25,037 nucleotides of DNA from a virus: IMG/VR virus record IMGVR_UViG_3300035670_001174, positions 1 to 25,037 of that record. One strand, 5' to 3'. Of this stretch, positions 4,188 to 24,149 are shown in pieces. The position numbers and the translations under genes are program-made. The stretch's first letter is position 1. The number at the start of each line of letters is the position of its first letter. The notes under the pieces are model-generated. The model searched no databases and had not been told where the DNA came from. It saw only the letters and a list, made by a program, of their open reading frames with translations.

Positions 4188-4189
4188 TT

Positions 4190-5989: not shown

Positions 5990-6314
5990 ACATTATAAAG
6001 TCGTTAGTTGTTTGGTTTGAAATGTACTCCCCGTCGTTAACCGAAAACGTGTCTATCGGTTGGTTAGTACAAAACATTCGTTCTTTTAATAGTAGGTTTC
6101 CTCCCCCGTCTTTAATTACCGCCCAATAAAAATGGTTCTCCAAAGTTGGCAAAACACCACTAAAGGAATGGACGTAATCGCCTGTAGTAAATAACCCCGA
6201 AACGGGTACGGTATCATTCGTGTTTTCGTCCGTTAGTTCGAGCGTTACACCGCTTCCGAACCTAAGAATAAAGTTAAACGTTTGAGTTACGTTAGTTTGT
6301 TGAACTACTATCAT
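5982..6314 (-). CDS. Hypothetical virion-associated protein
   Basis: The 110-residue protein is beta-strand-rich with many Thr/Asn residues (VTQTFNFILRFGSGVTLEL...). It contains HFYWAVIKDGGGNLLLKERMF near its middle-to-end. It has no signal peptide or membrane segment. It lies between the tail-tube-like gene (past a terminator hairpin) and the portal. Small all-beta proteins here are often decoration or adaptor proteins, but I do not recognise a family. Confidence 0.6.
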   Translation of the reverse strand: MIVVQQTNVTQTFNFILRFGSGVTLELTDENTNDTVPVSGLFTTGDYVHSFSGVLPTLENHFYWAVIKDGGGNLLLKERMFCTNQPIDTFSVNDGEYISNQTTNDFIMYE

Positions 6315-6349
6315 ATTATAATAACTCGTTAACGTGTTTTTTGTGCAAT

Positions 6350-6373
6350 AAAAAAGGGGGCTATTAACCCCCC
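6350..6373 (-). terminator. Terminator-like hairpin after the tail-tube-like gene
   Basis: On the minus strand GGGGG-TTAATAG-CCCCC is followed by six T (AATAAAAAAGGGGG on the plus side). It lies about 22 bases past the stop at 6395. Genes of the same operon continue downstream without a visible promoter, so termination is probably partial, or the hairpin protects the 3' end of the upstream message. Confidence 0.75.
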
Positions 6374-6394
6374 TCTTTACCTTTTTAGAACATC

Positions 6395-6970
6395 TTATGA
6401 ATTAACTACCGTAGGGTTGTTAAGCAAAGTTACTAATTGCGCTTCGGTTGCAGCATCTAAGAAATTTGCAGGGGTTGCTTCTTGACCTGTGAAAGTCAAA
6501 GAATATCCGTTCATGTCACCAAGCGCAGTCCCATTTGAAATAGTACCCGCGGTTACATCCATTCCTCGCAAAAGTCCTGCAATAAAGTATTGCCCGTTGT
6601 TGTTTTCAACGATAATGTTAGGACGTCCGTAAGAAAGCAATTTAATTTGTTTGTGCGTAATCGCGTCTTGCTTTTTAAGCATAACGGTTAATACTTGCTC
6701 GAAGAAAGTAGTTCCGTTTTCGCGTGAACTTGTAATTGTTTGCTCGAAGGAGTTAGTTCCCTTAAGTTCAAACTTGTAAATATAAGCGGTTGTTGCAGGT
6801 GCAATAGGTGTTAAAGTAATACCTGTAATAACATCTTCGTAACCTACCGTAGTATCGTAAGTAATGTCGGTTTCGTCGTAAAGCCCGTAGTTAAGAATGT
6901 AAAGGTTTTTCAACCCCCCTACCGCATCTTTACAAGGCTCAATTCTACCATGTGAAATATCGCAACTCAT
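6395..6970 (-). CDS. Probable major tail tube protein
   Basis: The 191-residue protein begins MSCDISHGRIEPCKD. It contains FEQTITSSRENGTTFFEQ (about 74-91), KQIKLLSYGRPNIIVENNNG (107-126) and a terminal block with GLLRGMDVTAGT and NGYSLTFTGQEATPANFL. The repeated beta-hairpin style, a late TFTGQE-type strand and a size near 190 residues fit tail tube subunits of Bacteroidota phages. It follows the major capsid gene and is bracketed by hairpins that could make an abundant, separate message. A neck or decoration protein is the alternative. Confidence 0.55.
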   Translation of the reverse strand: MSCDISHGRIEPCKDAVGGLKNLYILNYGLYDETDITYDTTVGYEDVITGITLTPIAPATTAYIYKFELKGTNSFEQTITSSRENGTTFFEQVLTVMLKKQDAITHKQIKLLSYGRPNIIVENNNGQYFIAGLLRGMDVTAGTISNGTALGDMNGYSLTFTGQEATPANFLDAATEAQLVTLLNNPTVVNS

Positions 6971-6992
6971 TTTATTTTAGTTTTAAAAGTTT

Positions 6993-7024
6993 AAAAAAAA
7001 GGGTGGCAGTTTTATCCACCACCC
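6993..7024 (-). terminator. Terminator-like hairpin after the major capsid gene
   Basis: On the minus strand GGGTGG (7024-7019) pairs with CCACCC (7006-7001) around a 12-base loop and is followed by eight T (7000-6993). It sits 22 bases past the capsid stop. The next gene has no recognisable promoter of its own, so read-through must occur. Confidence 0.75.
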
Positions 7025-7046
7025 CGTTATATTTTAGTTATGTGGA

Positions 7047-7988
7047 TTATCCGTAAACTACGATATCTTCGATAACTCCGTATTGCGCACCCGCTGCATA
7101 TCGCATAATAACTCGTACATTGTCATCACCCAATGTGGCGGAGGTGTCTATTACTCTAACTTCTTGAGTGTCGCTCAAAAGTGAGCATCCAAAGTAAAGG
7201 TTAGAAGTAGTTGTAGCCATAGCGGTATCGTTAGCAAGTCCGTTAGCCATAAAGATTGGAATACCATTAAAGCTAAGGTTTCCGTTAGTGTACCACATAG
7301 TACCTTGTGCATTTATACCCGCGTTAGCAAGGGAACCTGAACCCGCAGTTCCAAAACCACCTAAAGCAGAAATATACGCTTTTACGAAGTTTTGAGAAAG
7401 GTAAATTTTCAAATCAGGCTTTCCGTACAAAGAAGCAGGAATAGCGTCTACAATAGCTTGTAATTCACCTACTACGTTCAAAGGAGTAATTGGAGAAGAA
7501 GGTACTAATTGACCCGCAGGCAATAAAGGGTCTACCAATGCGGTGGCGTACAACCCGTCAAATTGACCCGAAGTTGATGCAGAACCTTGCCAAATAGAAA
7601 TTTCGTTAGCGGCTGCAACTTTTTCAGCAGCGTAAGCGATTAAATAATCAGCAAAAGATTTTGGTAAAGTGTCGAAAGAAGAGTAACCCATTTCGATAGA
7701 TTGCCAAGTAGAATGGAACTCTTTTTTACAAAGTGTCATGTTTACTTGAAGGTCTTTAACTTCTAACACACGCTCGGTTAAGTTAACTGTTCCTGCGGTG
7801 TTATAGTCGCAAGTTGCATCCTGCAAAAAGTTAGTTGTCTCTAAACGTTGGATAACGCTTTTGAATTTTACGTTAGGCATAACGGTAACCCCTCCGCCTT
7901 CGATAGTTGGCGCGCTCAAAAGAGCCGCAGAAACGTACTTACCTGCCCACTGACCTGCGTACGTTGTTGTAATGTTTGGATTTGGCAT
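7047..7988 (-). CDS. Major capsid protein (HK97 fold)
   Basis: The 313-residue protein has the size and order expected of an HK97-fold shell subunit: a flexible N-terminus, FKSVIQRLETTNFLQD (about 43-58), a helix with SFADYLIAYAAEKVAAANE, a central LKIYLSQNFVKAYISALGG spine-like segment, and the late IPIFMANGL and VRVIMRYAAGAQYGVIEDIVVYG strands typical of the A domain. It follows the scaffold-like gene by 17 bases. A terminator hairpin lies directly behind it. No cleaved propeptide is obvious at the N-terminus. Confidence 0.85.
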   Translation of the reverse strand: MPNPNITTTYAGQWAGKYVSAALLSAPTIEGGGVTVMPNVKFKSVIQRLETTNFLQDATCDYNTAGTVNLTERVLEVKDLQVNMTLCKKEFHSTWQSIEMGYSSFDTLPKSFADYLIAYAAEKVAAANEISIWQGSASTSGQFDGLYATALVDPLLPAGQLVPSSPITPLNVVGELQAIVDAIPASLYGKPDLKIYLSQNFVKAYISALGGFGTAGSGSLANAGINAQGTMWYTNGNLSFNGIPIFMANGLANDTAMATTTSNLYFGCSLLSDTQEVRVIDTSATLGDDNVRVIMRYAAGAQYGVIEDIVVYG

Positions 7989-8005
7989 TTTTTCTAATTT
8001 TTAGA

Positions 8006-8605
8006 TTATTTATACATTTTGTTTAATACGGAATCCATTATTCCGCGTGGTGCTTTAGCGCCTATCTTAACGAAATCCGCTTTAGCTTCATTTTCAGGGT
8101 TAAACGCGATTGGTTCGGGTGTTTCGCTAAGTTCGGTCGCTTCGGTTGCAACTACGTTAACTTTGGAAAGTTTAGCCAATTCTGCTTTTAACAATTCGTT
8201 TTCTTCTTTAAGTTTTTCCATTTCGCTAAAGAACGTTTCTTTAACTATAGATTCAATAGTTTTCTTTGGAGCAGATACGGGTGCGCTCATTTCTTCTTCG
8301 GGCATAGGCTCGGTTACTTCCTCTTTGGTTTCTTCTTCTACCTCTTCTACTTCTTCCTCTTTTTCTTTAACCTCGGAAATAATACCTTCCTCTACTACTA
8401 CCAAAATACGTCCGTCTTCTAGTTCGTATTCGCCAACGGGAACGGCAATTTTTTGCTCGTCTTCCGTTACGACAAAAACTTCTTTACCTGCTTCGAATGA
8501 ATCCGCTTCGATTTTGGTTACTCCGTCCCCCATAAGCATTTGCTCTAACTTAATTTCTTTGCTAAGAAGGCTTTTAATGTGTTGTAAAAGTGTGCTATTT
8601 TTCAT
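8006..8605 (-). CDS. Scaffold-like acidic protein
   Basis: The 199-residue protein has a small N-terminal part (residues 1-75, beta-rich with EAGKEVFVVTEDEQKIAVPVG). A strongly acidic low-complexity run (EVKEKEEEVEEVEEETKEEV, about 77-96) and a helical segment with heptad character (SEMEKLKEENELLKAELAKL, about 127-146) follow. The C-terminus is basic (KAPRGIMDSVLNKMYK). Acidic linker, coiled coil and basic tail immediately upstream of the capsid gene are the usual design of scaffolding proteins, whose basic tail binds the capsid subunit. Confidence 0.7.
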   Translation of the reverse strand: MKNSTLLQHIKSLLSKEIKLEQMLMGDGVTKIEADSFEAGKEVFVVTEDEQKIAVPVGEYELEDGRILVVVEEGIISEVKEKEEEVEEVEEETKEEVTEPMPEEEMSAPVSAPKKTIESIVKETFFSEMEKLKEENELLKAELAKLSKVNVVATEATELSETPEPIAFNPENEAKADFVKIGAKAPRGIMDSVLNKMYK

Positions 8606-8611
8606 ATTTAT

Positions 8612-8998
8612 TTATTTAAGTTTTTCTATTTCAGAAACAAAACGAGCAAATAAAGAATTTGCATTTGATATTTGTTTTAGTTTTTCGTTAGCATATTTTA
8701 AGCCTGTTTCTAAATTAGCATTTATACCTAATTCTTTTGCTTTAACTTCAATCTGTTTTGCTTCTTGTATGGTTTCATTTATTATTTTCTCTAAATTTCT
8801 TAAAGCATTTTGAACTGAAGATACATTACCTTGAACTTTAGATATATCGGAAAACGGAAGACTAAAAGATTTTAATTTAGTATCTACTTCTTTAACAGTA
8901 GCTAATTCTACTTCGTGTTTAGCTAATTCGGTTTTATCCAATTCCAAGTTGGCTTGGATTTCGTCCGCTCGGTTTATCTTGTCTAAAATGTTTTTCAT
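8612..8998 (-). CDS. Coiled-coil protein, copy A of a related pair
   Basis: The 128-residue protein is almost entirely helical and Lys/Glu-rich, with long heptad-like stretches. It shares a plan with the 136-residue protein at 9343-9753: N-terminal ILDKINR-type start, ELAKHEVELA-type segment near 30, and a KAKELGIN motif (about residues 87-94) followed by a C-terminal helix. It lies between the scaffold-like gene and two micro-genes. A head-assembly or virion-internal role is suggested only by location. Its codons look more AT-rich than those of the portal or capsid genes. Confidence 0.65.
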   Translation of the reverse strand: MKNILDKINRADEIQANLELDKTELAKHEVELATVKEVDTKLKSFSLPFSDISKVQGNVSSVQNALRNLEKIINETIQEAKQIEVKAKELGINANLETGLKYANEKLKQISNANSLFARFVSEIEKLK

Positions 8999-9035
8999 AA
9001 CTTAATAACTTATTTGTTTTTTGGTTGTTGCATTT

Positions 9036-9212
9036 TTACGGCAAAGGATTCCAATTTGGCGCGGGTGGTTGTGGTGGTGTAACATCCCCTCCTATACCTT
9101 GGTTTTGTAGTTCGCCTGTACAACATTTACGCCTGTATTTTCCGTCTTTACATAGGCAGGCTCTTTTACCACTTGTACGGCTTGCCCTTGGTTTATTTCC
9201 GTTTTCATTCAT
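9036..9212 (-). CDS. 58-residue cysteine-motif protein
   Basis: The ATG at 9212 overlaps the stop of the 44-residue gene as ATGA, and the frame ends in TAA at 9036. The N-terminus is basic (NGNKPRASRTSGKRA). It is followed by CLCKDGKYRRKCCTGELQNQ (residues 19-38), a CxC...CC arrangement, then QGIGG and a proline-rich end. The CLC-DG-Y--CC-G----QGIG pattern is one I recall from small proteins in other Bacteroidota phage head clusters. The four cysteines could bind a metal. Another short frame starts at 9208 but has no such motif. Confidence 0.65.
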   Translation of the reverse strand: MNENGNKPRASRTSGKRACLCKDGKYRRKCCTGELQNQGIGGDVTPPQPPAPNWNPLP

Positions 9213-9343
9213 CCTTGACCTTTATTTAGTTTAACGTAATTCTTTGAACTCTTTAGTTTGCTCGTTTTACTTTTGGCGTGTACGTTAGGACGCTTTACTT
9301 TCGGCTTTTGAACGTGGTTAGAAGTTGCAACTTGTTTAGCCAT
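9209..9343 (-). CDS. 44-residue lysine-rich peptide
   Basis: The ATG at 9343 overlaps the stop of the upstream coiled-coil gene (TAATG). The frame runs 44 codons to a TGA overlapping the next start. The product (MAKQVATSNHVQKPKVKRPN..., then KSKTSKLKSSKNYVKLNKGQG) is almost purely basic and polar, like a histone tail, so nucleic acid binding is plausible. Overlap at both ends supports it as a gene. Confidence 0.6.
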   Translation of the reverse strand: MAKQVATSNHVQKPKVKRPNVHAKSKTSKLKSSKNYVKLNKGQG

Positions 9344-9753
9344 TAATATTTAGAAATTAAACTCCAATTATCTTGGTTTGATTTATCTAATTGATTAAGA
9401 AGATTACTTGCGTCTAAATATTCTTTGTAAATAGGTAAATCATTAATTGATATTCCTAATTCTTTTGCTTGAGCTGAAATCTTTTTAAAGAAATCGTTAC
9501 TTTCTTTACGTTGTTTTTCATATTTAACTTTGTTTGCTTCGTAATTATTTTGTAATGCGTTTTTCAAATTAATAGCATCGTCAAACATTTTTTTAGCCTT
9601 TAAAGAATCATTTTTCATTTTATTAGATTCTCCTTCCTCTGATTTTATTTTAGCCACAATAGTTTTTAAATCGTCAACCAAAGCTAAACTTACTTGGTGG
9701 TTTTCTAATTCAATTTTTCCTAATTTGTTTAGGATAGTGTTTAAGTTACTCAT
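9343..9753 (-). CDS. Coiled-coil protein, copy B of a related pair
   Basis: The 136-residue protein is helical, Lys/Asn-rich and parallels the protein at 8612-8998: SNLNTILNKLGKIELENHQV at the start, a long central helix, QAKELGIS (about 95-102) and a short C-terminal helix. It starts one base after the protease gene and ends at a TAATG junction. Its shared KELGI motif and architecture suggest an old duplication. Function unknown; by position it is a head-assembly accessory protein. Confidence 0.65.
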   Translation of the reverse strand: MSNLNTILNKLGKIELENHQVSLALVDDLKTIVAKIKSEEGESNKMKNDSLKAKKMFDDAINLKNALQNNYEANKVKYEKQRKESNDFFKKISAQAKELGISINDLPIYKEYLDASNLLNQLDKSNQDNWSLISKY

Positions 9754-9754
9754 T

Positions 9755-10336
9755 TTATTTTATGTTTAATAGATTTTTAAGTTCGTTTATTACTTCGATA
9801 GCTTCGGCTTCTTCTGCGCTCATTTCGAACTTATCCGCAAAGTAACCTTCGATAGAAAAGCCTTTTACTTTACCCTCTTTAACATCGTTCCAAATTTCCT
9901 CGTTATTTACTTTCATCGAAATCATCCAAGTTCCTTTAGGCAAGTCGAATCCGTATAGTTTGCTTTTGTCTTTTTCTTCGTCTTCGATTATCCAACTTTC
10001 TACAACGCTTAAACCTGTAACCTTTTTTTCGTGTTCGTAGGTTGCGTTATTTTGGTTTGAGTTGATTAAAAAAAGTTCGCTCGCTTTTCGAATCGTGTCG
10101 GAACTAAAGTAAATATAGTATTCTTCGTTCTTTGAATTTCTGCGGTAAATTTGTTTATTAGGCACTAAAGCCGCACCCATTAGAATTCTCTTTTCGGAAT
10201 CAACTTCCTTTAATTCGATTTCGTGTTTTTTTAAGGCTACAAAGTTTTCCTCGATAGCGGGCGAATGTACAACGCTTACCGCGTCTATTCCGCTCTGCGG
10301 GTCTTCATCGTCTATAATGAGTTCAATAATTCTCAT
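9755..10336 (-). CDS. XkdF-type head maturation protease (S78_2-like)
   Basis: The 193-residue protein has the hallmarks of the PBSX XkdF putative serine protease family: SVVHSPAIEENFVAL (21-35), ILMGAALVPNKQIYR (51-65), a strand-helix block EEYYIYFSSDTIRKA, the likely catalytic histidine in NNATYEHE (His102), the ESWIIED strand (113-119), and the likely nucleophile in KGFSIEGYF (Ser161). Such enzymes process scaffold and capsid proteins during head maturation. It lies between the tape measure gene and the scaffold/capsid genes, the expected side of the head module. The third active-site residue is not evident by eye. Confidence 0.82.
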   Translation of the reverse strand: MRIIELIIDDEDPQSGIDAVSVVHSPAIEENFVALKKHEIELKEVDSEKRILMGAALVPNKQIYRRNSKNEEYYIYFSSDTIRKASELFLINSNQNNATYEHEKKVTGLSVVESWIIEDEEKDKSKLYGFDLPKGTWMISMKVNNEEIWNDVKEGKVKGFSIEGYFADKFEMSAEEAEAIEVINELKNLLNIK

Positions 10337-10357
10337 AACTTAATAATTTTAATTTCC

Positions 10358-12637
10358 TTAAAGTGTTGCGTTTTGTATTCTGTTTCTATCCAAACTCTGA
10401 GCGCTTGTTACTTCGCCACTAACTACGAATGCTTGCGTGGGTTGTTGTTGAAGTTGGGCTAATTGGTTTAGTCCGTTATTTCCTACAACATTAAAGTTAG
10501 GGGCTTGCATTCCCCCGCCTGCGGAAAGAGAACCACCACTAACACCGCCACCACCGCCACCACCACCCGAAGAACCTCCACCTTCGAATTTTTGAGCGCC
10601 AATTTTAGCGACATTAACTAAACCCGCTGCAACGGCTAACCCTGCTGCTATTCCCCCTCGAACGGGTGAACTTGGGTCGGGTAATGGCAAGAATTGCGAA
10701 CCATAGGCTGCGGTTGCATTCATATAAGTGTCGATTAAGGCGCTTGCCATTTGAGCGGCTTTCTTTACCTTGAATGCTTTACGTGCGCTTTCTATTCCTT
10801 TTTTTCCGAATAAGTCGGTAAGGTCTTGAATAATGGTTAAGCCTTGTTTTGCAAAACCTACATTTCTTTCAAGTTCTGCGCGTTTACGCTCTTCGTTTTC
10901 TTTGTCGTACTTTTGATTAATAGCGGCTACCTCCCTTCCTCTCATTTCGGCTATCGTTTTTTCGGCATCCGCGTTACCTTTAGCCATACGCTCCATTTCG
11001 GCGTATTTTTCTGAAATCAAATAAAGTTCTTTGTCTTGAGCGGTTAAACTTGCTTGGTAGTTTTCTTCCTCCATTCGCTCGATTTCCATATCAAATGCTA
11101 ACTTTCTTTGCTTTTCATCGTCTTGCATTTTCTTTTGAAAATCCTCCGCACGTTTTTTTACTTCGGCTTGGTACTTTTCGTCAATCGCTAATAAATCTTT
11201 GTTTAAAAGTTCCTTAGCGTTTTTTAAAATATCTTTTTCCTGTTGGGTTAATTTATTATAAGCGTTAATTTGTAATTCTTCCGTTAATTTATTGTAAGTT
11301 TCACGGCTTATTTTTCCTTCTTTGTATTGGTTATCTAAAGCGGTTTGTTCTTCCTTTGTACGTTCTTTTAAAAAGTTGTCGCGGTAGTCGTTAAATTGGT
11401 CTTCGCGTAATGCTTTTTCTTTTTCTATTCCGTCTTGCATTAACGCCAACCTTTGATTTTCTGCTTCTTCTTCTAATTTTGCAGCGTCTTCGTTTTGTTT
11501 TTGTAAGTTGCTTACGTAATCTTCGCGTTTTTTCTTAGCTGCTTCCCTCGCTTTTTCGGCGGCGGCTTGTGCTGCTTCTGCGGATTTCTTATTATTGTTT
11601 ACTTCATTAATTAATAATTGGTTTTGTGCATCTTTGATTCCCTCGGTTAATTCAATGCGTTGTTTTTTTATATCTTCATATCTTTTAATTGATTCACTAT
11701 CAGTACCTACCAATTTTTTTAAAGTGTTTACTGTTTGCTCGGAAGCCCGTATTTCTAACTCAATTTCTTTAAGTTTTTCCTTTTGATATTTAATCGATTC
11801 TTCAATTTTGAGTTTAGTTAGTTTTTTAGTATCCTTACCTTGCGCGTCCATTAAAGCAATTTCGCGCTCGTATTGTTTTTGGCTTGAGTTAAATTGCGCC
11901 TCCCTTGCGGCAGCTAATTCTTCACGTGCTTGTTTTTCTGCTTCTAAACGAGCCATTTCATTTTCGTGCGCTTCTTCGCCTGCAAAATCAGTAAAGCCTA
12001 AAAAGTCACCAATCGCTTTTAAAGATTCGATAACGGGTTGTAGCGCATCTAACAACAAATCAAAGTTTGCGATTAGTAACCCAACCGCTACAATTATAGC
12101 ACCTATTCCCGTACTAATTAAAGCAGCACGAAAAGCCTTTAACGCTCCACTTCCTGCGCCCACTACAAAATTATAGGCAGTTTGAACTCCCGTTAAAACT
12201 TTTTGCGCCAACGAAGTTTCTTTAATTCGACTATATAGGTTTTTCATCGAACGCCCCGCATCTTCTAAACCTTCTAAACCCTGCGCCAAAGCCATTGCGC
12301 TTTGCACTTTAAGCATTGTTTTTTGAACGTTTTCCGATTCTACACCGACTAAACCTAACCCGCCTTCGATAGCGCTAAAACCACTTGCGACCGCGGACAT
12401 TGCTTTACCCATAGCGATAAAAGTACCTTCGCCCTTGTACGATTGTAGTAAATCGTTAGTATCTTCGATTTGGTCTTTCAATTCAGCGGCTCGTTTGGCT
12501 GCCTGTGCGGCTTCGGTAGACGTTTCCCCGTAAGCTGCCGCTATGTTTTGCAATTCTACAACCGCTTCTTTATACTGTTGTTTAAGCGTTTTAGTATTGT
12601 CTTTTATTTCGAGTTCAATCGTTCTTTTTTCTGCCAT
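10358..12637 (-). CDS. Tape measure protein
   Basis: The 759-residue protein is mostly helical. An N-terminal coiled coil (residues 1-60) is followed by Ala/Gly-rich helices. A hydrophobic segment near 165-195 (LISTGIGAIIVAVGLLIANF) is probably the membrane-active part. A long charged coiled coil (220-620, repeated EEAENQR/KEKALRED-type heptads) and a Gly-rich linker (about 684-709) complete it. This is typical of tape measure proteins that set tail length. At about 1.5 angstrom per residue it predicts a tail near 110 nm (inference from the general rule). It begins inside the end of the small gene at 12615-12791. Confidence 0.88.
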   Translation of the reverse strand: MAEKRTIELEIKDNTKTLKQQYKEAVVELQNIAAAYGETSTEAAQAAKRAAELKDQIEDTNDLLQSYKGEGTFIAMGKAMSAVASGFSAIEGGLGLVGVESENVQKTMLKVQSAMALAQGLEGLEDAGRSMKNLYSRIKETSLAQKVLTGVQTAYNFVVGAGSGALKAFRAALISTGIGAIIVAVGLLIANFDLLLDALQPVIESLKAIGDFLGFTDFAGEEAHENEMARLEAEKQAREELAAAREAQFNSSQKQYEREIALMDAQGKDTKKLTKLKIEESIKYQKEKLKEIELEIRASEQTVNTLKKLVGTDSESIKRYEDIKKQRIELTEGIKDAQNQLLINEVNNNKKSAEAAQAAAEKAREAAKKKREDYVSNLQKQNEDAAKLEEEAENQRLALMQDGIEKEKALREDQFNDYRDNFLKERTKEEQTALDNQYKEGKISRETYNKLTEELQINAYNKLTQQEKDILKNAKELLNKDLLAIDEKYQAEVKKRAEDFQKKMQDDEKQRKLAFDMEIERMEEENYQASLTAQDKELYLISEKYAEMERMAKGNADAEKTIAEMRGREVAAINQKYDKENEERKRAELERNVGFAKQGLTIIQDLTDLFGKKGIESARKAFKVKKAAQMASALIDTYMNATAAYGSQFLPLPDPSSPVRGGIAAGLAVAAGLVNVAKIGAQKFEGGGSSGGGGGGGGVSGGSLSAGGGMQAPNFNVVGNNGLNQLAQLQQQPTQAFVVSGEVTSAQSLDRNRIQNATL

Positions 12638-12791
12638 TTCTCTTTACTTTTATTTCGCGCATTCCTTGTTTCCAAAGCCCTTTAATGTCGTTATGTAGTT
12701 TATATTTCCCCTTTGCGATTTCGATAAATTCGTGTTTTCCTACGAACTCATCTACTTGTAATAATCCAATAATTTGTTTTATGTAACTCAT
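12615..12791 (-). CDS. 58-residue protein preceding the tape measure gene
   Basis: The ATG at 12791 overlaps the stop of the 791-residue tail protein gene (ATGA). The frame ends in TGA 23 bases inside the tape measure gene. The product (MSYIKQIIGLLQVDEF..., then HEFIEIAKGKYKLHND, ending RNGRKKND) is small, basic at its C-terminus and probably helical. It exactly fills the 150-base space between its neighbours. I do not recognise it, but the coupling at both ends makes it a good gene. Confidence 0.7.
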   Translation of the reverse strand: MSYIKQIIGLLQVDEFVGKHEFIEIAKGKYKLHNDIKGLWKQGMREIKVKRNGRKKND

Positions 12792-15163
12792 CTTATAATT
12801 ATAATTTGTCCGTTAAGTATTTCTCCGTTTGCGTATTCGTATTCAATGTCGATAAAAATAACATCGTTTCGCGATTCGGTTTCTAAGGTGTATCCGTCTT
12901 CTGTTATTCTTACTTCGCTTTCCTCGGTTATCCGTGTAGCGGTATCTAAAGTCGGTAGGGTTATTTCTACGCTTCTATCTTCCGTTATTTCGTCGGGTGT
13001 TATGACTACGTCCGAATTTGTAGAAGTAAATCTAACCGAAGCCACAGAACCCGTTTTCGAAGTTACGTTAGGTAACGTAATAGGAACTACTACTACGTCT
13101 TTGTCGGGTGGTGGTTGCAAAATATAAACGGGGTTAACGGGCATAAAATCGTTAAGTAATTCGAACTCCGTTACGCCTGTAACTAAATTCGTTTTCATTT
13201 GATTTATTAAATACCTTTTATCCCTAATTATTACCCTATCGTTTAATTGGATTCCTGTAAGAATTGAAACGGGTAAATTAGCTTTTACCGTTGGTAGCCT
13301 GTTTTTAGGGTTAAATAAGTTAGCTAAATACGGAAAATAATACGTTGCGAAAATACTTTGTTGTATAGGAGTAAGCCAATAAGAAGAAGTTTCGGGCGCA
13401 AAGTTTAACGAGTATTTAATTCCGTTATTTGTTAAATCCTGCCCGAACATTGTATAATCTAAATTCGTAAAGTGGTTAGTTCCATCCGTATAATGTACGT
13501 GCGTTGCTAGCGTAACACCTCCGTATTTGTACAATAATAAAGGCTTAGGAATATTAGGCGAAAACGAACTGTCTAACGAGTATCCAACCTGCAAGTTCGT
13601 ACCCGTAAATTTGTTAAATAGCATATTTTCAAACGGAACTTCTAAAGTAAATTCGCCCCCATCGTACGGGTATTGGTATTCCGTGTTCCCCCATTCTTTT
13701 AAGCCAACTTCAAAATATTTTTTATTCATAAAATTTTCCGAAGGCTGAAACTTAAAACCTATTTTTTTGTAAAGTTTTACGCGGTCTATTCCTATTTCGT
13801 CTTTATCCGTAAATTCGGTTATGTCTATTACCGCTCCTGCTCCGTACCAATCGGCTAAAGGAACTATATTAAATGTGTTTGGCTTAGTGCCGTAGCAAGT
13901 TAGGTTAAATTGTTTAAGAATGCCCGAAATAAAATCCTGCACCTTCATAGTAGGCGCTAAGGTTTGTAAATCGCTAAAAGTAGTTAGGTTGTTTACATTT
14001 GTATCTATGGTAACAAAATCAGTAAAAAAGTTAGCCCCTATAAAATAACTTACCGAGTAGGTAATATCCAAGGTAATAGATACCGCCGCGCTCGCTCTTA
14101 ATTTAAATTCGTAAACATCATATAAACCTTGTACATTTGGAATGTTAGTAATGCTTGCGTTTAAGGTAAATCCTTGACCTTGCGTAGTTTGATAAAGTGA
14201 ACCATTTACGTAAGTATCTAAGTAATATATTACCGAAGGGTTAGAGTTACTAGCTACCGAAAAAGTTATGCCCATAAAAGAAGCGCCGTTTTGGTAGTAA
14301 ACGTTTAATACGTTTTGCGTAAAATCAAAAACGTAAGGAGGCGAACTTGGGTTAAGGTTGTACGTACTTCCTCCCTGAGCTATTACTGAATTAAAGGTAA
14401 CGTTTTGCGCTTGCCCAATAAAGTCAAAATCGTTTTTATTTTTGTACCATAGGTAAGCCTGCTTAAATCTATTGTCCGTTAAGAAACTTCCTGTAAACGT
14501 TACTCCGTATTGCGCTGCAATTAAATCGAAAATACTTTTAACTCTAACCGCAGGGAATAATTCGCGGTAATCTATGGCTCCTGCGTTGTTGCTTATGTTA
14601 TTTGCCCCTGTATTCGAATACCAATTAGGAAAATTTCCGCTTGGGTCTACCCCTTGGTATTGCCAAACTCGATTTGAAGTTATTAAGGGATAACATACGT
14701 CCCAATCAATAGTTGGGTTTGTTATGCGGTTGTATATTTCCGTAAACGAGTAGTCGTGGTCAAGTGTGGAATGGTCTAACACACTTAACAAGTCCTCTCC
14801 TACTAAATCTTTAAGCGTAGTTACATCCCCGTAAAAAGTTATAGTGTAGGAGTTAGGTTGTCCGTTTTTTAGTTGGCTCTTTTCCATTTGGATTTTTCCC
14901 CTTCTAAAAAATGTCATATCTATTTCTATGTAACCTTCTAAACGTTCTTGGTAATTAATAGAACTATTCAACGCGTTTTCGTAGAAGTATTGCCAAATAG
15001 CGTTATTATTCGCGCTCGTAGGAATCGTAAAGGATTGCGAAAAATCGGTAAACGTTTTCGAAATGTCCTGTATATTTTGAATGGTAGAAGTTACCTCTAT
15101 ACTTTCATCGTTGAATAAATCTAATTGCCTACCTTCTACAAAAATTCTAACTTGCCTTTTCAT
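12788..15163 (-). CDS. Large tail-tip / baseplate hub-like protein
   Basis: The 791-residue protein begins KRQVRIFVEGRQLDLF (2-17), followed by FTDFSQSFTIPTSANN and FRRGKIQMEKSQLKNG, an N-terminal pattern conserved in tail proteins of Bacteroidota phages. The body is beta-rich with many Asn/Tyr/Thr. DRVIIRDKRYLINQMKTNLV with a following ELLNDFMPVNP block near 640-670 is like the end of hub-type domains. A Thr/Asp/Val-rich C-terminal extension follows (about 675-791, PLDTATRITEES-like repeats). It probably forms part of the tail tip. The distance to the tape measure gene is only one 58-codon gene. Confidence 0.65.
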   Translation of the reverse strand: MKRQVRIFVEGRQLDLFNDESIEVTSTIQNIQDISKTFTDFSQSFTIPTSANNNAIWQYFYENALNSSINYQERLEGYIEIDMTFFRRGKIQMEKSQLKNGQPNSYTITFYGDVTTLKDLVGEDLLSVLDHSTLDHDYSFTEIYNRITNPTIDWDVCYPLITSNRVWQYQGVDPSGNFPNWYSNTGANNISNNAGAIDYRELFPAVRVKSIFDLIAAQYGVTFTGSFLTDNRFKQAYLWYKNKNDFDFIGQAQNVTFNSVIAQGGSTYNLNPSSPPYVFDFTQNVLNVYYQNGASFMGITFSVASNSNPSVIYYLDTYVNGSLYQTTQGQGFTLNASITNIPNVQGLYDVYEFKLRASAAVSITLDITYSVSYFIGANFFTDFVTIDTNVNNLTTFSDLQTLAPTMKVQDFISGILKQFNLTCYGTKPNTFNIVPLADWYGAGAVIDITEFTDKDEIGIDRVKLYKKIGFKFQPSENFMNKKYFEVGLKEWGNTEYQYPYDGGEFTLEVPFENMLFNKFTGTNLQVGYSLDSSFSPNIPKPLLLYKYGGVTLATHVHYTDGTNHFTNLDYTMFGQDLTNNGIKYSLNFAPETSSYWLTPIQQSIFATYYFPYLANLFNPKNRLPTVKANLPVSILTGIQLNDRVIIRDKRYLINQMKTNLVTGVTEFELLNDFMPVNPVYILQPPPDKDVVVVPITLPNVTSKTGSVASVRFTSTNSDVVITPDEITEDRSVEITLPTLDTATRITEESEVRITEDGYTLETESRNDVIFIDIEYEYANGEILNGQIIIIR

Positions 15164-16251
15164 TAAATCACGTTGTTAATTAAATCGTAGCTTTCTTCGA
15201 ACTCTAAAGTGTAATTTATCTTTTTGTTGTTTAGGTTCTTTTCTTTGTTAAAATCTTTTGTTTTCATTTTAACGGGTTTCCCGTCTAATAAAATTCGTTC
15301 GCTTAAAAGTAACTGCTGAAGATTTGAGTTAAAGGATTCGTCTACCCATCCCGTATTTACTCTATGGGTTATAATTCCGTTCGTGTTAAATACTTGTCGT
15401 TGGTTTAGGTTTGTGTCCCATTGTGCAGAAGCCCCTATTTTTTGCATTAAATTAAACTCGCTTGTGGTTGTGTTTAAACTTTGGTAGGAGGCTTTGAAAA
15501 AGAATTCACGTTGCCAAGTTCCGTACATATTGATAAAGTCCACTACTTGTACATCGTAGTAGCATTCTTCTATTGGGTAAAACGTAGCCTCCCAAACTAA
15601 GTTGGAAAAAGTATCAAACACTTCTACTTTATTTCCCGTCAAATAATAAGGAGAATAAACGCGGTAAAGGTTGTAAATCCCGTCCGCAGTAATGTTATTC
15701 GTAAAACTTAAACCCGTTTGAAGTTGCGTATATTTTACGGACCATCCGTTTTCTAAATAACTGACAAACGTTCCCGCTCTTTGTAAAGGGTTGGATATTG
15801 GAAAATTATTCGCGCCGCTCCAAAAATAATAATTCTTCGGCTCTAAATGTACTGCGTATAAAGAAGCAGGGTTAACACCTTGTTGATAATATCCGTAACC
15901 ATCGTAAGCATAAAAATTAAGCGTGTCAATTAGTACGTAAGTTCCCGCGATTAGGTAATATCTTTTGACGTCTACTAGTATGTATTCGTCAACATTTAAC
16001 AAAGCCGTGTTAGAGCTAAAGTTGTTTTGAAAACTATCGTGCTTTATATACTCCATTAAGTACGGAGAAATGTTATATAGCGTTTGCGTATTGTTACTTG
16101 CGGGAATTAACTTTTCGAGCGTGTAACTTGGTAAAGTTGGGGGTGTTGTTCCGTCTTTATAAATGTATAGTTCTATTTTACTTCCTGTTTGCCCTACTAC
16201 GTCTATTTCTAAAATAAACGGGCTTCTAACGTATATTTCACTTATAGCCAT
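15163..16251 (-). CDS. Tail protein, probably distal tail/baseplate component
   Basis: The 362-residue protein is beta-rich and acidic to neutral. It opens with SEIYVRSPFILEIDV (4-18) and IELYIYKDG, which looks like an immunoglobulin or fibronectin-like strand pattern. It continues with many aromatic residues (NFYAYDGYGYYQQGVNP, about 111-127) and closes with a helical/strand segment (KKINYTLEFEESYDLI). It sits between the gp10-like protein and the hub-like protein and touches the latter by one base (TAATG). A distal tail role is inferred from order; no specific family signature is clear. Confidence 0.55.
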   Translation of the reverse strand: MAISEIYVRSPFILEIDVVGQTGSKIELYIYKDGTTPPTLPSYTLEKLIPASNNTQTLYNISPYLMEYIKHDSFQNNFSSNTALLNVDEYILVDVKRYYLIAGTYVLIDTLNFYAYDGYGYYQQGVNPASLYAVHLEPKNYYFWSGANNFPISNPLQRAGTFVSYLENGWSVKYTQLQTGLSFTNNITADGIYNLYRVYSPYYLTGNKVEVFDTFSNLVWEATFYPIEECYYDVQVVDFINMYGTWQREFFFKASYQSLNTTTSEFNLMQKIGASAQWDTNLNQRQVFNTNGIITHRVNTGWVDESFNSNLQQLLLSERILLDGKPVKMKTKDFNKEKNLNNKKINYTLEFEESYDLINNVI

Positions 16252-16774
16252 AATTCTTCATATTTTCTTTCATTATTGTATCTAGCATTTTTTCTGCTTC
16301 CAAACCGTAAGCATCTATCATTTCGTTTGGTAATGTTTTAAATGCCTGTTCAAATGGCTTGGTAAAAAACATACTAGGCTTTATTCCTTTTTGCCAAATA
16401 GAACGAGTAATTATAAATGCTGTGGCATCGCTACTTAAAAACCTTCCTTTCTTGTCTCTAAACTGAATGCCTCGATATTTAACCCATTTTTTTATGCCTT
16501 CGGTTAACCCTCCTTTTTTACCCGAACCCGAACCAAACCTAAAGTTACTTAGGCTTCGTCCACTACTTACACCCTTTACCCCTTGGTCTTGGTAAAACCC
16601 GTATTCCTCCATTTCAAAAAATAAACGAATAGAATTAGGCATAACCTTTACTTCAGCGTTTAACGAATCTTTTAATTTGCCTGAAGCAGATTTTTGACGT
16701 AGGTTATTTTTCGCGTTTTTTATAACAATATCGCGAAACTTTTCTAAGGCTTGTAATTGTAGTTCTTTTTCCAT
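16238..16774 (-). CDS. HK97 gp10-like tail completion protein
   Basis: Read from the ATG at 16774 this is 178 residues. A helical start (LQALEKFRDIVIKNAKNNL) leads to KLKDSLNAEVKV and the EEYGFYQDQGVKG block. A GSGSGKKGG-type loop and GLTEGIKKWVKYRGI (about 95-109) follow, then AFIITRSIWQKGIKPSMFF and KPFEQAFK. These blocks, especially the G-KG loop and the R-W-KGI--S-F end, are the signature of HK97 gp10-like proteins that join or finish the tail. The frame extends two codons to a TTG at 16780, but the ATG forms a TAATG junction with the previous gene, so I prefer it. Confidence 0.8.
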   Translation of the reverse strand: MEKELQLQALEKFRDIVIKNAKNNLRQKSASGKLKDSLNAEVKVMPNSIRLFFEMEEYGFYQDQGVKGVSSGRSLSNFRFGSGSGKKGGLTEGIKKWVKYRGIQFRDKKGRFLSSDATAFIITRSIWQKGIKPSMFFTKPFEQAFKTLPNEMIDAYGLEAEKMLDTIMKENMKNYGYK

Positions 16775-17229
16775 TAACAACGTGTCATATCGTTAGGGAA
16801 ATCTACGTCGAATGTCATTGCCCACCCTGCTAGATAGTTTTCGAATCGCTCGGTAAAAGGTTCGCAAGTAGGAGAGCCGTTAAGTTGGTAAAGGTTATCC
16901 CATATGTTTCCGTGTTTTAGCATTTCGAAGGCTCGGTTTAATATAGCTAATTGAGTATTCAAAACGTCTATTTCGTTGTCCGCAGTTTCGAACGTGTTAG
17001 GCGCTTCCTCTTTGCGTTGGCTTACGTTATCCATCGCAAGTAAAGTAACGTTAGCGGTCATTACGTTATCATTAAACGTAACCTGATTAACCATAACGTG
17101 AACTAACGGAAATATAGTTTGTTTGCCTAAATCAACGTTGAATATCGAACCTTGCGAAACGGTGTTTACTAAAGGGTCGGAGTTAAAATGCGTTTTTAGT
17201 TGGTCTAGTAGTGAGTAATAGCCGTTCAT
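16774..17229 (-). CDS. Tail terminator-like protein
   Basis: The 151-residue protein starts with YSLLDQLKTHFNSDPLVNTV, the opening helix typical of tail terminator/gpU-like and related proteins. FPLVHVMVNQVTFNDNVMT follows, then a NEIDVLNTQLAILNRAFEML helix (about 84-103) and a strand-rich C-terminus (CEPFTERFENYLAGWAMTF). It starts at an ATGA overlap with the -1 frame ORF, which places translation termination of that frame exactly at this gene's start. The role is inferred from length, order and the FxxRFENxLAGW block shared by such phage proteins. Confidence 0.6.
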   Translation of the reverse strand: MNGYYSLLDQLKTHFNSDPLVNTVSQGSIFNVDLGKQTIFPLVHVMVNQVTFNDNVMTANVTLLAMDNVSQRKEEAPNTFETADNEIDVLNTQLAILNRAFEMLKHGNIWDNLYQLNGSPTCEPFTERFENYLAGWAMTFDVDFPNDMTRC

Positions 17230-17498
17230 AATCTAGGTTTTTTTATTTCCATAATTTCTATTTCTGTTTTTTCTGCTTCGAAGGTAAGATAGGTAAGGCA
17301 TTTAAATAATCCGTATTTTGTAACTTCGTCATATTTTGTAAGGTCTCCTTTAGCAAGTCCGTATATGCTTGAATACCAACCCCATTTTTTTCCAAACTGA
17401 GTTCTTGCGCTAAAGTCGCTTGTTCTTGAGTCATCTTCTTCGTTTCCGTTTTTAAATAGTTTAGGGTAGCGGTTAATAACTCGCTTCCTAAAGTCCAA
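17226..17498 (-). CDS. -1 frame C-terminal extension of the tail chaperone (GT-like)
   Basis: This frame overlaps the last third of the 242-residue gene in the -1 frame. It has no ATG start (the first possible start is the TTG at 17498) but remains open further upstream. Its product after the junction (FGKKWGWYSSIYGLAKGD, then DEVTKYGLFKCLTYLTFEAE) looks like a true folded domain and resembles conserved segments I recall from other Bacteroidota phages. The stop overlaps the next gene's ATG. With slippery sequences in the overlap, the likely product is a 253-residue fusion made by -1 frameshifting, like lambda gpGT. Independent TTG initiation is the alternative. Confidence 0.65.
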   Translation of the reverse strand: MDFRKRVINRYPKLFKNGNEEDDSRTSDFSARTQFGKKWGWYSSIYGLAKGDLTKYDEVTKYGLFKCLTYLTFEAEKTEIEIMEIKKPRL

Positions 17499-17986
17499 AA
17501 AAAAACGCTTGCTCCTATTGCTATGTCCATAGGCGCGTACTTCATTGCTTCGCTGAATTCAGATGCTCCGTTATATTCTAAAATGTTATATTTTTCTTTT
17601 CGTGTTTCCGTAATTGGTCGGTACATTACTGCCATGGCTTTGTTATAATCGTCCCAATTAGATAGGTAATTGTCTAAATCTACGTATTCCCCGAAACTTA
17701 TATTTTCTAAGTCGGGAATAAATCCGTATTCAATATTTCCAATTTTGAATCTAGGTTGAAACTTTGGCTTAACTGAAAATATTTGATTAAAATGTAAAAC
17801 CAAATCGTTAATGCTAGTTAGCTTCATTTTAACAACCTCCTTTAATTCTATTCCGCAAAATATTTCAATCATTTTTTGCGCTATAAATTCTTCGTCGTTT
17901 GAATTCTTTTGAACCTTCAGGAATTTTTGATAATTCATTAAAGGAATTTCGCTAATTGAACTAGGAATAGTTATTTCGACTTTCAT
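17258..17986 (-). CDS. Tail assembly chaperone-like protein (G-like)
   Basis: The 242-residue protein opens KVEITIPSSISEIPLMNYQK, then has a helical body. Central parts include IEYGFIPDLENISFGEYVDL (about 88-107) and NYLSNWDDYNKAMAVMYRPI. It ends with two helices and a basic tail (LPSKQKKQK). It lies between the terminase and the tail genes and carries an overlapping -1 frame, which is the usual organisation of lambda G/GT tail chaperones that guide tape measure assembly. The frame-0 tail (NGVGIQAYTDLLKETLQNMT...) also looks like real protein, so both frames may be used. The function is inferred from this arrangement. Confidence 0.65.
   Translation of the reverse strand: MKVEITIPSSISEIPLMNYQKFLKVQKNSNDEEFIAQKMIEIFCGIELKEVVKMKLTSINDLVLHFNQIFSVKPKFQPRFKIGNIEYGFIPDLENISFGEYVDLDNYLSNWDDYNKAMAVMYRPITETRKEKYNILEYNGASEFSEAMKYAPMDIAIGASVFFWTLGSELLTATLNYLKTETKKMTQEQATLAQELSLEKNGVGIQAYTDLLKETLQNMTKLQNTDYLNALPILPSKQKKQK
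17450..17505 (-). promoter_or_regulatory. Two candidate -1 frameshift slippery sites
   Basis: In the zero frame of the 242-residue gene the minus strand carries nine T in a row (17505-17497; codons GTT TTT TTT TGG). Further on it carries T TTA AAA (17456-17450; codons TTA AAA), a canonical X XXY YYZ heptamer. Slippage by one base at either site enters the overlapping frame that ends at 17226. The second site is nearer the strongly conserved-looking part. No pseudoknot or anti-Shine-Dalgarno stimulator could be judged by eye. Confidence 0.6.
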
Positions 17987-17996
17987 ATATAATTAA

Positions 17997-18179
17997 TTAT
18001 TTATTTTGATTTTTGTAACTCATGGCAACTTCATAAGCCTTCAAAAGCATTTCGAAGTGAACGGGAAACCTTTGCATATTGTTAAACATTATTTGCACCC
18101 TTACGCCCTTACGTTCGTAAATGTATTCTTCTACGGCGCGAATCATTACTAACATATCGTCCGTCTTACCGTATTGCAT
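17997..18179 (-). CDS. Small protein of unknown function
   Basis: The 60-residue protein (MQYGKTDDMLVMIRAVEEYI..., with PVHFEMLLKAYEVAMSYKN at its end) looks entirely helical. It overlaps the terminase large subunit gene by 14 bases and is followed after 10 bases by the chaperone-like gene. I do not recognise it. Its place between packaging and tail genes gives no clear hint. Confidence 0.65.
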   Translation of the reverse strand: MQYGKTDDMLVMIRAVEEYIYERKGVRVQIMFNNMQRFPVHFEMLLKAYEVAMSYKNQNK

Positions 18180-19326
18180 AGCTTCCGTAATTTGCTCCTA
18201 TGCCCAACGTTTCCATTTCGTGGTAACGAAAAGCATCAATAGCGTGGTTATTAAAGTCGATAGGCTTATTTAATCGTTTGCCTTGTTTGTCCGTGTCCCA
18301 AACATACGAGCGCAATTCTTTGATTAAATTACCGCTGTTCGCAGTAACTAAGTATTCGTTACGTTGGATAACATCTATTCCGTAATTAATCGAATCCTTA
18401 CCTTTTGTTACCCCTTTAATCGTTATTCCGTAGCGTTTAATTTCGTCTATTGATTTGGGTTCGGAACTATCCGCGTAAACGGGTACGTGTTTTGGTAGGA
18501 GTTTCGCTATTTCGCTATTTAATAACCCTGTTTGGTATGCTACCTCGTTAACTATTCGTTGCCCGTTGTAATTGTATATTTCTATTATCGCAGTCGGGTC
18601 GTTGGTATATCCAAAGTCCAAACCTATACCGAGTAACTTTGCTTCTTTGGGTATCGTGTCTATTTGTTTCCAATTACTGAAAACTACCCCCTCCAACATT
18701 CCTAACTGCCCTTCGCCGTAAACTTTCCACCAATTAGCCCAATATGTAGACGTTTTCGCTTTCTCTTTGTTCTTTTCGATTTGTTCGATAATGCTTTGGT
18801 CAAGTGCTTCGTTGTCTTTGTAGGTCAATATTAAAAAATCCGAATCGGGTTCGTTCTTTAATTCAGTATGCACCCAAAATTCGTTAGCAGGGTTAAAATC
18901 TAAATAAACCTCCTTTCGTGTTCGAATAGCTAACTCGTTATAGGAATCAAATGTAACGTTATTACATTCGTTGATATAAAGAATGTCGCGCCTTGCTCCC
19001 CGTAGTTTACTCGAATCGTCTGCGGAAAAGAATTCAATAACGCTTCCATTGGCGAACTCGTAACGCAGTAAAGATTTGTTAAACCTATCTTCGAAGAATC
19101 GTCCCGTCCATTTCATTATTTTTAGGAAATCCTTTAGCGCGCCCCTTCGTAAATGGGGAATCGTTTCCGCTACTATACTTATTTCCAAACCTTCCTGCCT
19201 TGCGGCTTTGTCAATTAACACGGGTATTATTCCGAACGTCTTACCCGCCGAAGTTCCACCCTGAATAATCTTAATCCGTTTTTTAAGATTTAGAATCTTC
19301 CGAATCGCTGTTGTCTTCCGAAACAT
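18166..19326 (-). CDS. terL: Terminase large subunit (PBSX type)
   Basis: The 386-residue protein has both terminase domains. ATPase: Walker A GGTSAGKT (23-30), Walker B with catalytic Glu in DILYINE (114-120), and the coupling region YLDFNPANEFWV (141-152). Nuclease: LDFGYTNDPTA (236-246, Asp237), YADSSEPKSI (285-294, Asp286) and NNHAIDAFRY (359-368, Asp364), the three acidic metal ligands of the RNase H-like fold. The order and motifs match PBSX-family TerL. It powers DNA translocation into the prohead and cuts the concatemer. It overlaps the small subunit gene by 44 bases. Confidence 0.95.
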   Translation of the reverse strand: MFRKTTAIRKILNLKKRIKIIQGGTSAGKTFGIIPVLIDKAARQEGLEISIVAETIPHLRRGALKDFLKIMKWTGRFFEDRFNKSLLRYEFANGSVIEFFSADDSSKLRGARRDILYINECNNVTFDSYNELAIRTRKEVYLDFNPANEFWVHTELKNEPDSDFLILTYKDNEALDQSIIEQIEKNKEKAKTSTYWANWWKVYGEGQLGMLEGVVFSNWKQIDTIPKEAKLLGIGLDFGYTNDPTAIIEIYNYNGQRIVNEVAYQTGLLNSEIAKLLPKHVPVYADSSEPKSIDEIKRYGITIKGVTKGKDSINYGIDVIQRNEYLVTANSGNLIKELRSYVWDTDKQGKRLNKPIDFNNHAIDAFRYHEMETLGIGANYGSYAIR

Positions 19327-19729
19327 CGGGGAATAATGGTTGTTCGACGTTGGTAATTTCTTTTTTCTCTACTAAGTTGTTTAGACGTGCCGTAATGCTT
19401 GCGTTATAGATTCCTGCCATACCACCTCCGATTTGGTCGTTTCGAACCTCCCTACGTATACGCGTAACGATAGTTGAAAATCGCTTGTATCTATTATTCG
19501 AATTTGCAAAATAATTCGATAGGTCTTGAATTATTCCTAAATCCGCGCAGTAACATTCAAAGCCTTCTATGGTTAAAGGTCGTTCAAGTTCGCTATATTC
19601 GCTCCTACCTTCTTTACCTACGAAAGTATGTTTTAGAATAGGATTATTTTTTACGTGTCTTTTGTACTCCGTGAATAATTCCCAAAGGTGTTCGGGGCTA
19701 TGTATTTTATTTGGTCTTCCTTGTCCCAT
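19283..19729 (-). CDS. terS: Terminase small subunit / DNA-packaging protein
   Basis: The 148-residue protein begins GQGRPNKIHSPEHLWELFTE (2-21), the usual opening of Bacteroidota phage small terminases. It has TIEGFECYCADLGIIQDLSN (about 53-72), FSTIVTRIRREVRNDQIGGG (about 84-103) and GIYNASITARLNNLVEKKE (about 105-123), and ends in an acidic tail. The layout is a helix-turn-helix DNA recognition part followed by an oligomerisation helix. It is directly upstream of and overlaps the large subunit gene, as expected for the packaging initiation complex. Confidence 0.88.
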   Translation of the reverse strand: MGQGRPNKIHSPEHLWELFTEYKRHVKNNPILKHTFVGKEGRSEYSELERPLTIEGFECYCADLGIIQDLSNYFANSNNRYKRFSTIVTRIRREVRNDQIGGGMAGIYNASITARLNNLVEKKEITNVEQPLFPDVSEDNSDSEDSKS

Positions 19730-22957: not shown

Positions 22958-23625
22958 ATCGTTTTCATTAATAGGTTATAGTATTCTCGGCATAACTCTA
23001 CGCGCTCCTTTATTTTTTCAATTACTGATTCATCCCTTCGAATAAACCAATACTTTACCCTTTTATGTTCGGGGATATGGTCGAAAACGTGTTTACTTTC
23101 TACCTCTTTTCTTAGTTCCGTGTTTTCTTCGATTAGATTGAATTTCCAATGCGCCCTCCTTATTTCATCTTCTACCATTTGAAAAGGTGTATTAATTAGG
23201 CAATATGCTAAAATGCTTTCTTGTTTTCCCGTTAGCCACATATACCCTTGGAGTTGAAAAAAATAATCCTTATTAGGTACTTCCGTATCAAAAAACGGAA
23301 ACGTTGTAGCGTCCCAAGAGCATTTAACATCTAATAAAACTTCGTCCGTGTTTACGTCGGGCGTTCCCTTAACCCAATCGTTTTCGAAAAACTCGTAATT
23401 CTTGTAAATGAATTTATAGTTTAACACCTCGTTTACTAATGCTATTCCGATTTCCTCTACCTCGTTACCTTTATCCGTGTAACGCGAACTAAACTCTTTT
23501 TTTATTCCGTATTTTTCTTCCAATACTAAATCGTGAACGTAGGTTTTAGCCGTTTCCGATAGCACCTCCCCCGCTTTACGCGGGGTTGCCATTATTTTAC
23601 CAATTTGAGAAGCCCTGACTTTCAT
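22954..23625 (-). CDS. Lambda-exonuclease/YqaJ-like recombination nuclease
   Basis: The 223-residue protein has the YqaJ/lambda Exo core: RASQIGKIM (4-12), a helix with GNEVEEIG (53-60), and the PD-(D/E)XK active site GTPD (87-90) plus LDVKCSW (98-104), giving Asp90, Asp99 and Lys101. YFFQLQGYMWLTG follows (121-133), with Gln124 in the QxxxY-type motif. Such enzymes degrade one strand of double-stranded DNA from an end to leave single strands for annealing. It is coupled by ATGA to the ERF gene, making the two-component recombination pair typical of phages. Confidence 0.92.
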   Translation of the reverse strand: MKVRASQIGKIMATPRKAGEVLSETAKTYVHDLVLEEKYGIKKEFSSRYTDKGNEVEEIGIALVNEVLNYKFIYKNYEFFENDWVKGTPDVNTDEVLLDVKCSWDATTFPFFDTEVPNKDYFFQLQGYMWLTGKQESILAYCLINTPFQMVEDEIRRAHWKFNLIEENTELRKEVESKHVFDHIPEHKRVKYWFIRRDESVIEKIKERVELCREYYNLLMKTI

Positions 23626-24149
23626 ACGTTTTCAAGTAATTTAGCCTGCGCCGTTGTTAATGAAAATTGCGCGTATAAATCTTCCTTAGTGTATTTCCCC
23701 TGCGCAATAGCTTCTAAAGCCTTTCCTAATCGTTTATCGTCTATGCTAGGCTTTTTTAGTTCGTCTTTTACTTGTTCACCTGAAGCGTCCGTATCTTTGT
23801 CCGTTACTAAACCAAGCGCGGAACTCAAAGCATAACGCCGAAAGTAAGTAACACCGCTCCCGAATGATTGGTAATCGTTCATTCCTTTTAATGTAACTTG
23901 CGGTAGTATTATTTGGCTTTCTATATTTTCTCCGCTTTCAATGTGAAAAACAAGCGTTACTAAATAGCTTAATCCGTCTTTTGATTGCAACAACTGCGTA
24001 AAGCCTAATCCGTGTTTGGCTAATAGCGGGTTAATCTTTTCAAAGATAGCGGGTAAATCTGCGTAACTATACCCGAAGCCTTGTGTACCCTTGTGAATTA
24101 CGGGTACTTCTTGTTGGAAGTCTGCCAAAGATTTAAATAAATGTTTCAT
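23622..24149 (-). CDS. ERF-family single-strand annealing protein
   Basis: The 175-residue protein matches the ERF superfamily: a start with SLADFQQEVPVIHKGTQGFG (7-26), YADLPAIFEKINPLLAKHGL (29-48), a strand FTQLL...SYLVTLVFHIESGE, and the signature SFGSGVTYFRRYALSSALGL (about 94-113) followed by DTDAS. It anneals complementary DNA in recombination or genome circularisation. The C-terminal 50 residues are a less conserved helical region. It works with the nuclease encoded at once downstream. The leader shares ACGCT-ATG with other promoter-proximal genes. Confidence 0.92.
   Translation of the reverse strand: MKHLFKSLADFQQEVPVIHKGTQGFGYSYADLPAIFEKINPLLAKHGLGFTQLLQSKDGLSYLVTLVFHIESGENIESQIILPQVTLKGMNDYQSFGSGVTYFRRYALSSALGLVTDKDTDASGEQVKDELKKPSIDDKRLGKALEAIAQGKYTKEDLYAQFSLTTAQAKLLENV

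Follow-up and report, generated by a model that had tools for sequence, protein, structure and literature searches.

A tail-module phage gene with a conserved T run, probable −1 recoding and two selected C-terminal reading frames

A gene on the minus strand of the window (the whole stretch of viral DNA analyzed here, 25,037 nucleotides long) most likely undergoes programmed −1 recoding at a T9 run, judging from an in-phase slippery sequence that is kept in divergent homologues. Comparison of these homologues establishes that the site, the frame relation and the domain encoded in the −1 frame are conserved, and that both frames are under selection. The explanation that we favor as a whole, and hold with moderate confidence, is −1 recoding at T9 or T10, carried out by the ribosome and yielding a pair of proteins resembling lambda G/GT, both of whose alternative tails are selected; the ribosomal route, the chaperone function and the ratio of the two products are the elements of it that we infer.

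According to this explanation, most decoding events would keep the zero frame and yield a short form, composed of a 163-residue N-terminal region and a 79-residue zero-frame tail. In a fraction of events a −1 shift, for which tandem slippage of tRNA-Phe on T TTT TTT is the likeliest mechanism, would yield a 253-residue form in which the same N-terminal region is followed by the −1 tail domain. The two forms would then most likely act like lambda gpG/gpGT, with the common part serving the tape measure and the −1 domain recruiting another tail component. The zero-frame tail being selected too, the same DNA would specify two alternative C-terminal domains. The features concerned, all on the minus strand, are as follows:

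17258–17986, minus: zero-frame product, 242 aa, ATG at 17986 and stop at 17258; phrog_32199
17498–17986, minus: shared N-terminal region, codons 1–163, delimited by alignment and an AlphaFold2 model
17497–17505, minus: T9 run, with the heptamer T TTT TTT in phase for −1 slippage at 17504–17498
17226–17498, minus: −1-frame tail, conserved domain LDFRKR...QFGKKWGWYSSIY..., presumed to be produced only after a shift
17258–17497, minus: dual-coded overlap of the zero-frame tail (79 codons) and the −1 tail, with conserved −1 silent sites
17488–17490, minus: +1-frame stop TAG, two codons past the T9
17450–17456, minus: T TTA AAA, formerly proposed as a second slippery site; not conserved
16774–17229, minus: next gene, phrog_30964, 151 aa, its ATG overlapping the −1 stop (ATGA)
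18166–19326, minus: terminase large subunit, the neighbor upstream
10358–12637, minus: putative tape measure protein (phrog_1506, E 4.8e-9), downstream in the same module

The T run and the −1 frame

The zero-frame codons across the run are GTT TTT TTT TGG in the window gene, and the run at 17505–17497 is the sole A/T run of nine in the window. Over the last third of the 242-codon gene the −1 frame is open as far as a TGA at 17226. A sequence-only reading of this DNA had considered both frames credible there, and both indeed prove to be selected across lineages. The same reading had predicted a 253-residue fusion beside the 242-residue zero-frame product, which is what a −1 slip at T9 gives (163+90); its figure of about 190 dual-coding bases, on the other hand, has to be raised to about 237 nt (79 codons) when T9 is taken as the site. 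It had also named two slippery runs, one of which survives comparison. A T9 or T10 run recurs in all of the roughly 250 loci described below, whereas T TTA AAA, in phase though it is here, is already lost in relatives at 83% identity (locus L012 reads TTTGGAG), so that only T9 is credible as a signal.

Homologous loci were sought by protein and profile searches of IMG/VR, GTDB genome contigs and phage records. The resulting set of about 250 loci corresponds to some 240 distinct contigs, a few contigs being present twice, and derives from IMG/VR, from Bacteroidetes MAGs and from the isolate Nonlabens phage P12024S. Wherever a locus extends as far as the site, T9 or T10 is found at the equivalent place, never a shorter run; there are 22 loci with T10, and all others have T9. 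The extra T of the T10 loci is due to a substitution at one end or the other, the first codon becoming TTT or the run being followed by TTG, and the frame relation in these loci remains −1. Run and −1 relation hold down to 24% identity, and the −1 frame is open through to the next gene in the homologous loci. Despite the fact that TTC accounts for 35% of Phe codons upstream of the slip site, a run of at least nine T and the −1 relation are found in all of the roughly 250 loci, which is beyond chance.

Three loci, found with the −1 tail, sit in Bacteroidetes or Flavobacterium MAGs; together with P12024S, a phage that infects a flavobacterium, they point to Bacteroidetes as the hosts. A scan of the genome contigs with the N-terminal region returned no match, and a fourth genome-contig match to the −1 tail (L164) was discarded as a chance match. 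A distant fold match, gp10 of Flavobacterium phage 6H, has a different frame arrangement and was kept out of the set of loci. In that phage (L165, 10047–10927), a 300-nt unannotated stretch follows the end of gp10 and contains an open domain in another frame, and an in-frame stop lies near the junction; this may represent either another recoding layout or a sequence error. A further observation concerns a relative in which a T10 (L091:839–848) lies inside a 375-codon ORF of another gene, possibly as a second slippage site.

Homopolymers are error-prone in sequencing, and a true run of T10 misread at assembly would turn the arrangement into a plain in-frame fusion. We attach a negligible probability to such an error: the same T9 is found in about 240 independently assembled contigs and in the isolate genome, the −1 relation persists where the run is T10, and the zero frame is itself under selection. 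The occurrence of T9 or T10 in every locus is in its own right a strong argument against an assembly error.

The −1 tail is about 90 residues long and contains 22 invariant columns among 48 sequences, including W-G-W-Y. In 117 of 136 distinct loci, the stretch of the −1 frame from the stop before it up to the slip is free of ATG, GTG and TTG, and in no locus do the first 20 tail codons include an ATG. Conservation of this tail in the lack of a usable start leaves recoding as the only plausible route to it. The earlier statement that the −1 frame ends on the ATG of the next gene is borne out by the ATGA overlap. None of the homologues has a usable −1 ATG, a −1 stop inside the domain or a lost run, the three observations that had been named as speaking against the earlier reading. 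That the −1 frame is a separate overlapping gene with a start codon of its own would agree with the annotation of P12024S, in which an ATG within this frame opens gene 39. It is nevertheless very improbable, in our view, given that most loci have no −1-frame start upstream, that 85 of the 136 have no ATG anywhere in this frame, and that FFLxFR, the conserved start of the domain, sits at the slip itself.

Selection on the two overlapping tails

Past the run, the zero-frame tail stays open for 55–92 codons in every lineage but the P12024S-like group (18–27 codons), and in most relatives the slip is separated from the zero-frame stop by about 165–276 nt. To assess this openness, synonymous codons were redrawn while the amino acid sequence of the −1 protein was kept unchanged, and the zero frame was scored from 12 codons past the slip onward. 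Given the −1 protein, a zero frame this open has P = 0.001 in the window gene. Of 23 sequences, 19 give P ≤ 0.004, and the remaining four are those with the shortest zero tails (P from 0.0075 to about 0.1); for the 225-aa cluster, significance is not reached by openness alone (P about 0.1).

Among near relatives, −1-frame wobble positions of the overlap change less than those of the gene downstream; this holds for 59 of 60 pairs. Across lineages, silent sites were compared at −1 codons where no zero-frame stop is possible. Thirteen lineages are saturated at silent sites, as seen from a fourfold match in the N-terminal region of 0.33 against 0.32 expected, and yet their fourfold −1 wobble positions match at 0.91 in the first 30 codons of the overlap and at 0.71 later (0.30–0.33 expected), dropping to 0.36 where only one member of a pair is still open. 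In a set of 20 largely independent lineages, the corresponding values are 0.63 in the overlap (0.32 expected), 0.35 in the N-terminal region and 0.23 in pairs with a single open member. The −1 silent sites of the overlap are thus conserved at about twice expectation across saturated lineages. The homologue comparison at synonymous sites that had been proposed from the sequence therefore finds conserved wobble in near pairs and in saturated lineages alike, and the suggestion that the zero-frame tail is selected over an unusually long overlap is upheld. However, beyond the zero stop the wobble match is somewhat elevated too (twofold 0.60 versus 0.51; fourfold 0.52 versus 0.33, from only 65 cells), and part of the signal may thus not be zero-frame coding.

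At the level of the proteins, identity of the zero-frame tail across lineages is 0.47, as compared with 0.30 when the −1 synonymous codons are randomized, and residue change among near relatives is 0.167 in the zero-frame tail versus 0.082 in the −1 tail. Judged from these sequence comparisons, and bearing in mind the somewhat raised post-stop control, selection on the zero-frame tail is well supported, though weaker than that on the −1 tail.

The lower conservation of the zero-frame tail could also mean that only the −1 tail is functional, the other being incidental and kept to hold the zero stop near the next ATG for translational coupling. This would agree with the position of the zero stop 8 nt before the −1 stop in many loci and with the overlap between the −1 stop and the next ATG. 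It would not account for conservation of −1 silent sites even where a zero-frame stop is impossible, or for zero-tail identity well above the randomized value, and we consider it unlikely.

The route of the frame switch

A +1 shift would terminate at once owing to the TAG two codons past T9, which is present in 159 of 159 main-set loci and absent in L248–L251; this possibility was rejected. For the −1 shift we favor ribosomal over transcriptional slippage, a choice that sequence alone cannot decide. The ribosomal route has the textbook heptamer in phase at T9, and tail chaperones provide a precedent for it (PMC5009743); in an HK97-like cluster, two tested genes shifted at 6–7% (PMC3711429).

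The less probable but still substantial alternative is that RNA polymerase adds or drops U on T9/T10 and that the mixed mRNA is conventionally translated, in which case T10 mRNA would give the −1 fusion, T9 mRNA the zero-frame form and T8 mRNA a product cut two codons past the run. Transcriptional slippage is recognized by an A/T run at the frame junction that is some nine or more long, which is indeed present, and selection against A/T runs appears at length nine in many bacterial genomes (PMC1088944). Moreover, the run is always at least nine long, yet seven T would suffice for ribosomal slippage. Against this, conserved hydrophobic residues would account for the two flanking T (V/L/I at codon 161 of the zero frame, L/F in the −1 reading), and known tail chaperones rely on the ribosome. 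Run lengths in the ORFs of related loci, measured against synonymous shuffles, speak on both sides: A runs of at least nine are depleted about sevenfold (2 observed versus 14.9 expected), which suits slippage by the polymerase, whereas T runs of seven are depleted about twofold (9 versus 18.6) and A runs of seven are not, which gives a hint of ribosomal slipperiness.

The search for stimulators likewise bears on the polymerase. Stimulators of this sort are usual at −1 sites but dispensable, and no conserved stem or Shine-Dalgarno stimulator was found: a search for stems downstream gave neither consensus pairs nor a folding energy out of the ordinary, and among relatives there was no conserved Shine-Dalgarno-like element. 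An AGGAG considered as a candidate stimulator is confined to the nearest relatives. The lack of such an element fits hosts whose ribosomes do not recognize Shine-Dalgarno sequences, as is the case for Bacteroidia (PMC9976891), and the lack of both kinds of stimulator counts in favor of transcriptional slippage. Only tentatively do we entertain a reading in which the polymerase, slipping on a run of at least nine T, and not the ribosome, sets the ratio of a pair resembling tail chaperones in hosts of this kind, with both tails functional over about 240 bases. Either way, an abundant family of Bacteroidetes phages in which the T run is invariably at least nine long and both frames are selected over about 170–280 bases provides a clean natural setting in which to tell ribosomal from transcriptional slippage in non-Shine-Dalgarno bacteria.

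Genomic position, fold and known systems

The gene is the second after the terminase, with a 60-codon ORF in between. It sits in the tail module, five genes before the tape measure and not adjoining it; the block in which it lies runs to the putative tape measure, and protease-like, capsid-like and portal genes lie beyond. The module order across window positions 3012–19729 (terminase, tail, tape measure, protease-like, capsid-like, portal) places tail before head. Within 8006–10336, ORFs at 9755–10336 and 8006–8605 match different halves of phrog_24921 (protease-like), and two ORFs without a match lie between them.

AlphaFold2 predicts a confident alpha/beta N-terminal region (residues 1–160, block pLDDT about 72–91) followed by an uncertain tail. 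The model of the −1 tail is poor, and its fold matches were dropped as evidence because its pLDDT is only 67. Family and fold searches with the gene products gave no Pfam, NCBIfam or PDB match. Matches in BFVD are uncharacterized phage proteins, P12024S gene 38 among them, with a single weak match named chaperone (E 0.56), and 18 of 48 family members weakly match phrog_166, “tail protein”. Two BFVD entries, A0A516L5A8 and A0A6J7WDG4, are each matched by the model of the N-terminal region and by that of the −1 tail, and are possibly natural in-frame fusions. Homology to lambda G or T was not found by hhalign (probability 0.1%). Position and architecture are compatible with the earlier tail chaperone assignment, while lambda homology and Pfam, PDB or fold matches do not come to its aid. 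Judged by position and architecture, the products most likely act like tail assembly chaperones of the lambda G/GT kind, as candidate members of that family.

Frameshifting in tail chaperone genes is textbook ratio control, in which the zero frame usually stops a few codons past the slip, and in lambda G/GT the slip occurs on G GGA AAG. As in lambda G/GT (the class of Xu, Hendrix and Duda 2004), the gene described here would use one start and a −1 shift to make a short form and a longer fusion, and it likewise belongs to the tail module of a tailed phage. It differs in that sequence homology is not detectable, that its family keeps T9/T10 without exception, that it lies near the terminase instead of adjoining the tape measure, and that slip and zero stop are 237 nt apart, compared with 15 nt (computed) in lambda. 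This distance averages 26 nt in the SEA-PHAGES set and 36 nt in the Xu set (PMC10885494). What appears to be new with respect to known tail-chaperone frameshifts is the long, apparently selected zero-frame tail over the same DNA as the −1 tail. 

Shigella mxiE and Thermus dnaX also employ a long homopolymer, with the second frame reached via mRNA of altered length (PMC1088944); unlike them, ours is a phage tail-module gene with a long, selected zero-frame tail, and transcriptional slippage is here only a candidate. Potyvirus PIPO and comparable trans-frame overlapping products likewise join an alternative-frame domain to a shared N-terminus, with dual coding over a long stretch (PMC4552492). 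In contrast to them, the present case concerns a DNA phage of bacteria, and its two alternatives are C-terminal tails that hardly differ in length.

We found no report on this gene family in the open-access literature. Its homologue in an isolate is the gene pair 38/39 of Nonlabens phage P12024S, which shares the T9, the −1 domain and the neighbors and has a zero-frame tail of only about 27 codons. What is annotated at 23136–23830 of that phage (L082:11926–12620) as two separate, unrelated hypothetical genes, 38 and 39, represents the two frames of a single recoded T9 gene, and the annotated gene 39 has 55 codons from an internal ATG. The record illustrates how gene callers truncate or split genes of this type.
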